This document shows, piece by piece, positions 29,776 through 33,942 of a stretch of 64,000 nucleotides of DNA. How positions within the stretch are numbered: the first letter of the stretch is position 1; every line of letters starts with the position of its first letter. This DNA comes from Aldrovandia affinis (taxonomy: Eukaryota; Chordata; Actinopteri; Notacanthiformes; Halosauridae). The position numbers and the translations under genes are program-made. The notes under the pieces are model-generated. The model was given only the letters and a program-made list of their open reading frames with translations. It had not been told where the DNA came from and searched no databases. Where the stretch lies: positions 1,892,001-1,956,000 of the forward strand of contig JAINUG010000166.1 in assembly GCA_029706075.1 (NCBI GenBank). The letters are read 5' to 3'.

Positions 29776-32700
29776 ATGGTAAGAAGCTATTTGTGCTTAA
29801 ACGCCATAACATCCAGTAATGCATACGGTCATTTATGTCAATGTGTTAAAATGACTGAGTTAATGAAGTCTACGTTCCTAGCCAGCGTGTTTTAAAAACG
29901 CAAATGTATGTTACGGCCTCCTCTTTTTGAAGGCCGGGTACTAGGTTGTTAGCTAGGCGAGTAGCAAGCAAGCGATTCCGTTCAAGTTTGAACATAGCCT
30001 CGTGGATATTTAGTTGGTTTGGTTCTTCGACATGAATGTCTTCCAAATGGGTGTGATTGTTTAACTGTTGATAGCTATTTTGAGTTATTTTGCTAATGCG
30101 CAATAAGTAGTGAGGCCGTGCACCCCCGCTACTTTGTATCGCGCTTGTAGCTAGCTTAGCTAGCTAACTTGTCGCGTAACCAAGACGCATGTTAGTTTGT
30201 GAAAACACGTCTGAAATAGTTTGCTTTAAAGTCTTAACGCCACAGCTCAGTGGTTTTCCGTTGGCTGGCTTGCTAGTTAGTTAGCTAGCAATCATCACGC
30301 AAGTTGTCCAAACACGACAGGTCTCCCCCGTGACCGTTGTGCATTTACACGCTTGCTAGAATAAGCATGGACCAAGTGCTAAGTTCCGACTCATCCAGGT
30401 GCCTTAGTTCCACCGGTTCACGGACATTGTTGCCGTACTGTTTACCCAGTACCGAGTCCTCGAATACAACTGATGACTGATACAACAAGTGACTGCCCTT
30501 TCTTGCATTTCAGCCGCGAAAAATTGAAGAAATCAAAGATTTCCTGCTCACTGCCAGGAGGAAGGATGCTAAATGTAAGTGCCTTGTCACCTATGCCTGT
30601 GAACTTGGTACAACTGGACAGCTTCTCTTGCGCCAGACAAACAAACAGCCTCTTTTAATGGCCAATGGGCCCCAAGGCATTTACTGTGGAAAGCAAATGT
30701 GACAGATGCTCTGATGTTAAGGTGCTGGGACCACAGTGTGTGACTCTAACGATGTTAGTTGCTGCTATGTGATATTTTGAATCATCATGAATCCTGCATG
30801 GTGCTTTGGTCGAGTTTGTCAGGGAAAATCCTGTCTGTGTTGGGAAAGTCATGTGGTGCAAAAATGGTGTAGTACCGAGGCCAGAATCCAGCATACCTGT
30901 CTACTTCAGTGGAGGCCAGACGTTTTGTTCAATCCTGAACCTGGTTTGCTTATCTGGACGATCCACGCAAGTTGTCCAAACATGACCGGCCTGTGTCCGT
31001 GCCCGTTGTGCATTTACACACTTGCTAGAATAATTATGGACCAAGTGCTAAGTTCCGACTTTACCAGGAACCTTAGTTCCACCGGTTCACTGACATTCAC
31101 TGTGGGAGTAATCTGTAATGCTTCTTTTGGTGTAAGACGTGTTTCTTGCATGCATGTTGCATGTAAGGTTTTATGGCTAAAAAAGGCATCAGTCTGATAA
31201 AAATATTTGCATTTCTGGAGTTACATGTTACTCTTTTTTGTGTGTGTTAACTAACATGCATTGCACTAGCTGGCAAAAGACTATTGCAAGAATACTATGA
31301 CCATTGTCTAAACTAAAACAAACAAAAAACAGCTGGTACTACTGTTTGAAACGCTGGTTAATAACGTTAAGTTATAGCACTGCTGAGTTTAGTTTACAGA
31401 TGCATGTGACTTGTCACCGCTCTTCCGTTTCTATCAGTCCCGGATGAATTGCTTCAATTGACAGACAGGTGCTTGTGTGCATGTGCTTATAAGGGCGTGT
31501 CACATGCATCTTGACTAATGCTCATCCTGTTGATGGGTAGAGGTGAGATGAGTTCAGAATAGTTCGTTCAACAAGCCCCTGCTGCGCAATTGTCTAGTTG
31601 GAAGCTGTCAGCTGATGTTACAAATCATTGTCCTGGTTGCTACTAGCGACTGGCATAAAAATAAATTTAAAAACAAAAAATATTTTCTGGTCGATGATGC
31701 AACATCATGGATGATTAACTATGGATATTAACAAGATATTGCTAGCAAATCCATTTAAATGATCAAATGATTGTGGTTGAATGTGGTAAAATTTTGTATT
31801 TGTACTCCTTGTCCAAACTAAATGGGGGGGAAAGTCATGTCAGGTCCTTAATCAACTATTTTCTAAAGGGATAATTTTGTTTGTTCTGCATGTGTATAGT
31901 TTGTCATCTCATCCCATAATGTGTGCGTTTCATTGTGACGGTCCCATTTCGGAGTACTTAAAATGGTCTCTGCCCTGCAGACACATGTGGACGATCCCTT
32001 TGTATGCAGTTTTGCTACTTAAGATTAATTCAGCTTGGCTGTGACTGGGACAGTGCAATTTAGGCCCCTTGTTTAAGAGTGCCAAGGCAAGAGGGCGGAG
32101 TCCGGACCTCACTGCTGCCGCATTAATGCTCACTGTGGTTTCAGCTTTAAAAATCCAACTTCACAGCACCTTCGCTGTCCCATGAAATATACGAAATGAA
32201 AAACTGTCTCTGGCAGCTATTGGGAGCTTGTGATAAGTGTCCCATCTAACAGGTGTATCCGCTAAAGCAGGGTTGTCAAACTCATTCCATCGAGGGCCGA
32301 GTGTGTGCAGGTTTTTGTTGCAACCAATGCACTGATTTCAATTAGGTCCCTCCCTTGGTTGAAGAAGTGGGCTAATTAGTGAAATCACCTGGTGTAGTGC
32401 GTTGGTTGCAACAAAAACCTGCATACACTCGGCCCTCGATGGAATGAGTTTGACACCTGTGTGCTAATGTAACCCATTGACCAGGAACATGCTCTGATTG
32501 GACACACACATCTGTACATGCCACACACACACACACTCTTGGCCTCGTTAATGTTCTTTCCTAATTAAGGATGGAAGTTGCACCTGGGGCCTTTGGTGGC
32601 AGAGCGTTTGACTGTAGGCTCTATGTGCTAAGTCTCTGCCCCTGCTTTGTCCGCACAGCCGTTAAGATCAAGAAGAACAAGGACAACGTGAAATTCAAGG

Positions 32701-33942
32701 TGCGCTGCAGTCGGTACCTGTACACCCTGGTCATCACCGATAAGGAGAAGGCCGAGAAGCTGAAGCAGTCGCTGCCCCCGGGTGAGACTCCCGTTGCATT
32801 GCCCCGTTACCGCGGTTACATTACAGCCATTTAGCAGACGCTCTTACCCGGAGTAACTTAGTTTACATTTATTTAACACAGAATCCATTTACACAGCTGG
32901 ATATTAACTGAAGCAAGTCAGGTTAAGTGCTCAAGGGTACAACAGCAGTGCCCCGCCTGGGGTTCGAACCTGCAACCTTAGCGTTACTTCCCGAACTACT
33001 ATAATACACTACCGTCTGATACCCACTGGCTGTACAATACTGGGAGCATAGATTAGTTTTGATGGGAACAGTCCACCCACTGGCAAAGTACATCTGTAGT
33101 AGTTTGTCTGGGGAAAATCCTGTCTGTATTGGGAACGTCATGCAAAATGGTGTCGTACCAAGGCCAGAAGCCAGCATGCCTGTCTACTTCAGTGGAGGCA
33201 CCTGAGTCCATATGAGAGGTGAACCCCCGGGGGCTGGTTTGCCTGTCTGGACGATCCACGCAAGTTGTCCAAACATGACCGGCCTGTGTCCGTGCCCGTT
33301 GTGCATTTACACACTTGCTAGAATAATTATGGACCAAGTGCTAAGTTCCGACTTTACCAGGAACCTTAGTTCCACCGGTTCACTGACATTCACAGTGGGA
33401 GTAATGTGCTGTTGGTATAGAATGTTTCTTGCATGCCTGTTGAGTTTTGTGGCTTTACAAGCAGACTCGACAGGGTAGATTTAGAAAGTATTTGTGGTTT
33501 GGTTGGAATGAAATGGGCCAGAAGTAAATTTTGCACATAGCTTCAACTCTGAATTAATTTGAAGAAATGAAATGCTGTGCATCTGCCGTGAAAAGAGAAC
33601 TGCCGTGAAAATGTGCTTCTCTGTTCGGGACCAGTCGAGCTGGAATATTCCATTTAGTTTCTGTGTGGAGTGTGGCGGCTTTGGTGGGTGCTGCTGCCAT
33701 CGCATTGACTAATGCTTTTACACGGATGGTCAAGAACACTTTTTTGTTAATGCTGCCCTCACTCTGCTTTGCTCATGTCACATATAGCAGTGACATGAGA
33801 ATTTGAAGTAGAGTCCAACCTGTGACAATGAAAGGTGCAGGCTACATTAAAAGGTGTCATTGGTAAAACCGTTTAAATTAAAGTAAGTTTTAACGGAACT
33901 CTACTTTTCTCCCCAGGTTTGGCTGTGAAGGAACTGAAGTGA
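29776..33942 (+). CDS. rpl38: 60S ribosomal protein L38 (eL38), complete, spliced
   Basis: Cytosolic large-subunit ribosomal protein. Coding pieces: 29776-29778 (the ATG alone, last codon of exon 2), 30514-30574, 32659-32781 and 33917-33942. All junctions are GT..AG and keep frame. The joined product is 70 aa, the usual vertebrate length: [20 protein letters not shown] after the Met, then S and [30 protein letters not shown], and the end LAVKELK. No missing residue or frame break. The isolated ATG at an exon end, immediately followed by an intron, is normal for this gene. Introns 2-4 (735, 2084 and 1135 bp) each hold an H/ACA-type RNA candidate, so processing of this transcript probably also yields small nucleolar RNAs. 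Intron 3 also holds a hAT MITE and intron 4 a SINE. Confidence 0.98.
30296..30429 (+). ncRNA. Candidate H/ACA-box snoRNA, copy A (rpl38 intron 2)
   Basis: Two hairpins joined by a hinge. The 5' hairpin is closed by GCAAGTTGT with ACACGCTTGC. The H box AGAATA is at 30358-30363. The 3' hairpin has a lower stem TGGACC/GGTTCA and an upper stem with CTAAG/CTTAG. The ACA box is at 30424-30426, three nucleotides before the inferred 3' end. It differs from copies B and C at about 20 positions, clustered in loops and in the inner 5' hairpin. H/ACA snoRNAs guide pseudouridylation with dyskerin and are typically released from introns of ribosomal-protein genes. I cannot name the target or a known family. 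Confidence 0.78.
30808..31170 (+). repeat. Intronic duplication, copy 1 (rpl38 intron 3)
   Basis: A ~350-bp block, GTTTGTCAGGGAAAATCCTG through the snoRNA to about 31170, recurs in intron 4 at about 33099-33460. Outside the snoRNA the copies differ by many substitutions and small indels. Confidence 0.85.
30964..31098 (+). ncRNA. Candidate H/ACA-box snoRNA, copy B (rpl38 intron 3)
   Basis: 135 nt. H box AGAATA at 31027-31032 and ACA box at 31093-31095. The 3' hairpin has lower stem TGGACC/GGTTCA, an internal pocket (AAGTG opposite TTCCACC) and upper stem CTAAGTTCC/GGAAcCTTAG. The pocket-to-ACA distance of about 16 nt fits the pseudouridylation-guide rule (usually 14-16). Identical to copy C over 30953-31100, although flanking duplicated DNA differs repeatedly. 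Orientation is the same as the host gene. Target unknown. Confidence 0.82.
32268..32461. mobile_element. Palindromic hAT-type MITE (group M) in rpl38 intron 3
   Basis: The ends GGGTTGTCAAACTCATTCCA and ATGGAATGAGTTTGACACCT and long inverted arms make it nearly self-complementary. Flanking CGCTAAAG and TGCTAATG look like a decayed 8-bp target duplication. Close relative of 19880-20072, with the central segment inverted. Confidence 0.85.
32815..33016 (-). mobile_element. SINE group A (reverse) in rpl38 intron 4
   Basis: Starts ~33 bp after the exon 4 donor. Tail (CATTTAGCAGACGCTCTTAC), body (CCATTTACACAGCTGGATAT), B box in reverse (GGGGTTCGAACCTGCAAC). More diverged than the other copies. Confidence 0.85.
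33099..33460 (+). repeat. Intronic duplication, copy 2 (rpl38 intron 4)
   Basis: Counterpart of 30808-31170: it begins GTTTGTCTGGGGAAAATCCT and contains snoRNA candidate C at 33257-33391. The DNA between the shared block and the snoRNA differs by an insertion or deletion. Confidence 0.85.
33257..33391 (+). ncRNA. Candidate H/ACA-box snoRNA, copy C (rpl38 intron 4)
   Basis: Same 135-nt sequence as copy B, without a single difference. H box 33320-33325, ACA box 33386-33388. Same strand as the host transcript. It lies ~525 nt upstream of the terminal-exon acceptor. Confidence 0.82.

Follow-up and report, generated by a model that had tools for sequence, protein, structure and literature searches.

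We describe here three H/ACA-type RNAs, one in each of introns 2, 3 and 4 of rpl38, the gene for ribosomal protein L38, found in a stretch of 64,000 nucleotides (nt) of the fish Aldrovandia affinis (GenBank assembly GCA_029706075.1, contig JAINUG010000166.1, positions 1,892,001 to 1,956,000 of the forward strand). This whole stretch is called the window below, and positions are counted from its first letter unless another locus is named. The RNAs are almost certainly box H/ACA small nucleolar RNAs (snoRNAs). The explanation that best accounts for the observations taken together, and that we consider reasonably likely, is an intron-encoded snoRNA guiding modification of U966 in 18S ribosomal RNA (rRNA) with its 5' hairpin and of U18 in 5.8S rRNA with its 3' hairpin. 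Directly observed are the architecture of the RNA, the way constraint is distributed over it, the words of the guide pockets and their 15-nt spacing. From these we infer that the RNA would be expressed, excised from the rpl38 intron after splicing and packaged with dyskerin into a small nucleolar ribonucleoprotein, which is predicted to guide pseudouridylation at both uridines. It is well supported that this is an ordinary kind of gene, with no match in Rfam and with one unusual prediction that can be checked.

Architecture of the three RNAs

Copy A (30296..30429) lies in intron 2, copy B (30964..31098) in intron 3 and copy C (33257..33391), which is identical to B, in intron 4. They are 134-135 nt long and all are on the plus strand, which is that of the host. 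The architecture scan and the splice borders agree on this placement, which is the one proposed by the initial annotation, and alignments support each copy. The order of elements is the same in the three copies: a 5' hairpin, an H box AGAATA, a 3' hairpin and an ACA near the end. The H box, located by the scan at 30358..30363 in A, 31027-31032 in B and 33320-33325 in C, fits the consensus ANANNA, and the ACA box (30424..30426, 31093-31095 and 33386-33388, respectively) is conserved in all three. The two hairpins, the hinge and the ACA that had first been noticed are thus confirmed in each copy, whereas the distance of three nt between the ACA and the end of the RNA holds only if the 3' end is as assumed.

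The lower stem of the 5' hairpin is formed by GCAAGU with GCUUGC or ACUUGC; in the 3' hairpin UGGACC pairs with GGUUCA in the lower stem and GCUAAG with CUUAGU in the upper one. The guide words, given here with the coordinates of copy A (plus strand), have identical letters in B and C: GUCCAA (30306..30311) and AUUUACAC (30343..30350) on the left and right of the 5' pocket, AAGU (30374..30377) and UCCACC (30409..30414) on the left and right of the 3' pocket. The latter pocket had been drawn as AAGTG/TTCCACC, which is off by one because its G is paired with the first T, so that it reads AAGU/UCCACC and lies 15 nt before the ACA. In the scan, pocket and upper stem meet 16 nt before the H box and 15 nt before the ACA, within the 14-16 nt expected of H/ACA RNAs.

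The full architecture was searched for in the window with rules drafted after the structure had been seen. The plus strand gave three matches, exactly copies A, B and C, and the minus strand gave one (22117-22266), adjoining the tail of a short interspersed element (SINE). In 40 shuffles of one strand four matches were obtained. The stems form as drawn in A and B, except for one pair broken in A.

Several properties of the fold weigh against our interpretation. The folding energy is ordinary (z from -1.2 to -1.5), and the H/ACA plan as drawn reaches -27.9 kcal/mol in both A and B, as against best free folds of -37.4 and -37.2 kcal/mol. The plan is therefore 9.3-9.5 kcal/mol above the optimum, and the gap comes mainly from the 5' hairpin, for which plan and best fold give -15.2 and -22.6 kcal/mol in A and -11.5 and -18.8 kcal/mol in B. 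The plan of the 3' hairpin is within 0.4 kcal/mol of its best fold, but it is by these 0.4 kcal/mol that the 3' half of copy A prefers another shape. When the two halves are folded separately, each into its best shape of any kind, their energies add up to a value within 0.6 kcal/mol of the optimum of the whole RNA. In addition, no stem pair is altered on both sides between A and B, the two distinct sequences compared, and the pair 29-41 was omitted from the structure because B, unlike A, does not form it.

UGAG, the CAB box that the RNAs of Cajal bodies (scaRNAs) carry in one of their terminal loops, is absent from A and B, and C is equal to B.

Predicted targets in 18S and 5.8S rRNA

Matching of the pockets to rRNA and small nuclear RNA (snRNA), which had been proposed with the first description of the RNAs, was carried out on 1,269 uridines, contained in provisional human rRNA and snRNA sequences with a total length of 6,217 nt, in two registers, with 500 shuffled guides as a control and 200 in a simpler form. 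The best sites are U966 of 18S rRNA for the 5' hairpin and U18 of 5.8S rRNA for the 3' hairpin, and in both the register is 15 nt before the box.

For the 5' hairpin U966 scores -16.8 kcal/mol: UUGGAC of the 18S rRNA would pair with GUCCAA over 6 base pairs (bp) and GUGAAAU with AUUUaCAC over 7 bp, one A being bulged. The second-best site, U101 of U2 at -13.6 kcal/mol, was rejected on this difference and on the missing CAB box. Shuffled guides equalled the hairpin in 101 of 500 cases (42 of 200 in the simpler form), so energy by itself says little in favour of the site; moreover, the right arm has only four pairs unless one A bulges, and an A and a C beside the upper stem are left unpaired. 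These points also count against our interpretation. What supports U966 is not energy but the pocket of SNORA14, whose Rfam consensus contains the words GUCCAA and AUUU, as does the 5' pocket of the rpl38 RNA, together with its reported target, since SNORA14 guides 18S U966 according to passages of PMC9886955 and PMC7072173. On these grounds the 5' hairpin probably directs modification of 18S U966, which in human is served by SNORA14.

For the 3' hairpin U18 of 5.8S rRNA (GGUGGA-UC-ACU) reaches -23.9 kcal/mol, the next site being at -16.8, so that it is the best of all the uridines scanned by 7 kcal/mol. UCCACC is predicted to form six Watson-Crick pairs with GGUGGA on one side of the target and AGU three pairs with ACU on the other, 15 nt from the ACA, with guides that are the same in all three copies. 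Plant 5.8S U22 and vertebrate U18 are, as we take it from provisional sequences, the same residue, placed after GGA. The 3' hairpin may thus direct pseudouridylation of U18, the counterpart of plant pseudouridine (Psi) 22, an assignment that we hold tentatively on the pairing described. It could also be that the RNA is a genuine H/ACA snoRNA whose 3' pocket acts on a different site or on none at all, as in an orphan or a chaperone, and that U18 is matched by chance. We regard this as quite possible too, because 10 of 500 shuffled guides did as well (6 of 200 in the simpler form) with two hairpins tried, and in view of the modifications reported for 5.8S rRNA. The 5.8S tables of chicken, as given in the part of PMC2653536 consulted, list U14 (methylated), 55 and 69 and not 18. 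The review PMC8351944 counts, for human 5.8S rRNA, two sites of 2'-O-methylation and two of Psi, and passages of it also report Psi22 as mapped in Arabidopsis and call it plant-specific. A literature search for 5.8S U18 or Psi18 returned, among titles, none on such a vertebrate site. Against a chance match stand the width of the energy margin, the pairs on both sides of the target, the spacing from the ACA and the identity of the guides already described.

The rRNA of the species itself was also looked for in the genome. The 18S gene was not found with a 34-base probe allowing at most one mismatch. The 5.8S rRNA has two matches, and the one that is above the cut-off belongs to a remnant of ribosomal DNA (rDNA; L006/L009, G000:C890 near 4562995) in which the 5.8S sequence is complete, while the 28S match breaks off at about 450 nt and gives way to repeats. 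This 5.8S copy has an A for the G at a base that the 3' hairpin should pair, at a CpG, which is a further point against U18. Two of its base changes from the provisional human 5.8S fall at CpG, and this would fit the decay of a broken rDNA unit.

Divergence of the copies and their host gene

Copies B and C are part of a 148-bp stretch (30953..31100 and 33246..33393, both on the plus strand) that is identical by alignment and ends sharply, the adjoining base being different on each side. Alignment of their flanks over 182 bases gives 24 mismatches and opens 11 gaps, and at that mismatch rate an unbroken run of 148 has a probability of 8e-10. The contrast between likeness inside and divergence outside, which the initial annotation had pointed out, is therefore well founded (0/148 against 24/182 differences). 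Copy A is more distant: its alignment with B covers 134 columns, of which 117 match, 16 are mismatched and 1 is a gap. This local alignment begins and stops at the ends of the RNA, the flanks of A and B being no longer alignable. None of the 17 differing columns falls among the 36 columns of pockets and boxes, as designated by the analyst (P 0.003 for random placement), and four fall in paired columns, in three of which a standard pair is kept and in one of which it is broken.

These data also bear on whether the RNAs could be repeated intronic sequence without function. Such an explanation could appeal to the duplicated DNA in which B, C and a fourth copy, D, are embedded and to the unremarkable folding energy; yet copy A shares with the others the RNA only and not the surrounding DNA, pockets and boxes are unchanged, and the architecture is rare by chance. 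We consider it highly improbable.

A DNA search of the 1.22-Gb genome found four places only, namely copies A, B and C and copy D. The latter lies 117 kb downstream, within a broken duplicate of rpl38 that retains portions of exons 4 and 5 and of intron 4 between them and was delimited by alignment and tblastn (L005 about 5206-6199; G000:C735 near 2042200-2043200). Copy D has lost 17 bp of its 5' hairpin, and in a local alignment with C it differs at 8 of 118 positions inside the RNA and at 17 of 224 outside, which is the same rate. Since D is decayed and sits in a dead host gene, the sequence evidently mutates freely where the host is dead. A search of the genome with the pattern of the 3' pocket gave nine matches, four of which are copies A-D, while a reversed control pattern gave 9 and 8; covariance model R1 found no match in four tested of the five other places.

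The equal rate inside and outside the RNA in D, together with the absence of differences inside it between B and C, supports selection on the RNA. The initial annotation had left the choice between selection and gene conversion open; selection is now favoured by the contrast with the decayed D, and conversion is possible and not needed. That the identity of B and C is mainly the work of conversion is a doubtful though serious alternative, and it draws on several observations. The identity begins 11 bp before the RNA and continues for 2 bp beyond its end. D can be aligned with both copies at 131 columns of the 148-bp stretch, and at every one of these B has the same letter as C; two letters are common to D and A and absent in B and C. 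In the downstream flank (54 columns) C sides with D at 10 columns, B with C at 2 and B with D at 1. This order is reversed in the upstream flank, where B sides with C at 32 and C with D at 23 of 121 columns, although D aligns badly there. Changes in D alone are also expected without conversion, because D is a pseudogene, and constraint alone makes a lack of differences between B and C plausible, given that only 17 of the 134 columns distinguish A from B. The three-way comparison of B, C and D cannot decide between the two processes, as changes confined to D look alike under both. The reading supported by the data is that purifying selection accounts for the identity of B and C; conversion may have helped and is not separable from it.

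The host gene was recognised from exon 2 to the stop codon (29749..33942, plus strand) by tblastn, the Pfam L38e domain, splice borders and translation. Its exons, delimited by their splice borders, are exon 2 with the ATG at its end (29749-29778), 30514-30574, an exon 4 piece (32659-32781) that carries the Pfam match (Ribosomal_L38e, E 2.8e-24), and the last exon with the stop (33917-33942); joined, they encode an intact L38 protein of 70 residues. A pyrimidine-rich tract that resembles a terminal oligopyrimidine (TOP) motif suggests that there may be an additional 5' exon, with its end near 29542. Intron 3 also contains a weak match (31293-31388, plus strand) to the C/D snoRNA snR77, with 30.7 bits against a gathering cut-off of 50 and E 0.16, with an antisense-like stretch, AGCTGGTACTACTG; chance or a decayed C/D RNA may lie behind it.

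Elsewhere the window contains 10 3' tails of long interspersed elements (LINEs) of UnaL2 type above threshold, for example at 23052-23105, 62058-62111 and 28184-28237. Matches resembling transfer RNA (tRNA) at 22196-22259 and 62135-62198 are found near such tails, as in tRNA-derived SINEs. On the minus strand an open frame (11351-11833) includes the stretch LFQQDCAPVHK...SPDLNPIEHLW, which presumably corresponds to the end of a Tc1-type transposase.

Relation to known guide RNAs

The covariance search of the copies against Rfam, suggested when they were first described, matched no H/ACA family. In the scan of the window no family passed its threshold at the three RNAs, and no H/ACA family was found at E up to 10 in the rpl38 gene, copy B or copy A; copy C was covered by the scans of window and gene, and its sequence is that of B. 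The only match in copy B at E up to 10 is DLG2-AS1_2, on the opposite strand, which scores 8.9 bits where the cut-off is 70. The rpl38 RNA would add a family that Rfam 15 does not recognise in this DNA.

Titles and abstract openings found by a literature search name no H/ACA RNA in RPL38, and the string L38 is absent from the main text of PMC2653536. In zebrafish, 176 novel snoRNAs have been annotated, as the consulted part of PMC6954239 reports. The rpl38 RNA may be among them, and because this list exists we do not claim priority.

A divergent SNORA14 is the family assignment that the 5' pocket would suggest, as the pocket words are identical and the target is probably the same. This candidate was rejected for lack of a covariance-model match to RF00397, which was missed both in the window at the cut-off and in the gene and copies A and B at E up to 10, and we judge it very unlikely. 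The Rfam alignment, in fact, puts the pocket of SNORA14 in the 3' hairpin and not in the 5' hairpin as in the rpl38 RNA. Furthermore, the genome has at least two SNORA14 copies of its own, found by genome search about 2 kb apart on one contig (L011 1501-1636 and L012 1501-1637, G000:C513), and covariance model R1 finds nothing at these two places.

The presence of two SNORA14 copies means that U966 may have another guide, which speaks against its assignment to the rpl38 RNA. Their left guide, on the other hand, reads GAAGCAA, as opposed to AGUCCAA in the consensus, and on that side 3 bp remain with U966 in the one copy scored against the provisional target. Such an alteration would fit, in this one genome and for a provisional target sequence, a transfer of the U966 site from SNORA14 to the rpl38 RNA. 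The full scenario, in which the rpl38 RNA makes Psi at vertebrate 5.8S U18 and took U966 over from a SNORA14 with a decayed guide, appears unlikely, if worth stating. If it were true, a fish would bear a 5.8S modification regarded as a speciality of plants, and a known 18S site would have switched its guide. With an older copy, two identical ones and a dead one, the locus offers a natural experiment on how a guide RNA is multiplied and retained in a host gene.

Ribosomal-protein genes are known hosts of snoRNAs; in Drosophila 27 of them have this role, according to a passage of PMC2246290. Among individual systems, SNORA14 (ACA14a/b) shares with the rpl38 RNA the H/ACA class, the guide pocket GUCCAA/AUUU and 18S U966, and differs, besides the hairpin that holds the pocket and the lack of a model match, in its host, which for human SNORA14B is TOMM20 (PMC7072173, in part) and not rpl38. 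In chicken, GGgACA18, compared here by its description in part of PMC2653536, is a predicted guide of 18S-927, presumably the equivalent of human U966; it is listed with ACA14 as functional homologue and uses its 5' hairpin, as the rpl38 RNA is predicted to do, but it is 122 nt long, resides in intron 31 of CNOT1 and has its 3' hairpin assigned to U2-58. The same source, in the part consulted, describes GGgACA1 in RPL30 and GGgACA2 in RPL39, which resemble the rpl38 RNA in being H/ACA RNAs of 131-133 nt with ribosomal-protein hosts and targets in 5.8S rRNA, although the hosts are other genes and the targets other 5.8S sites (55 and 69).

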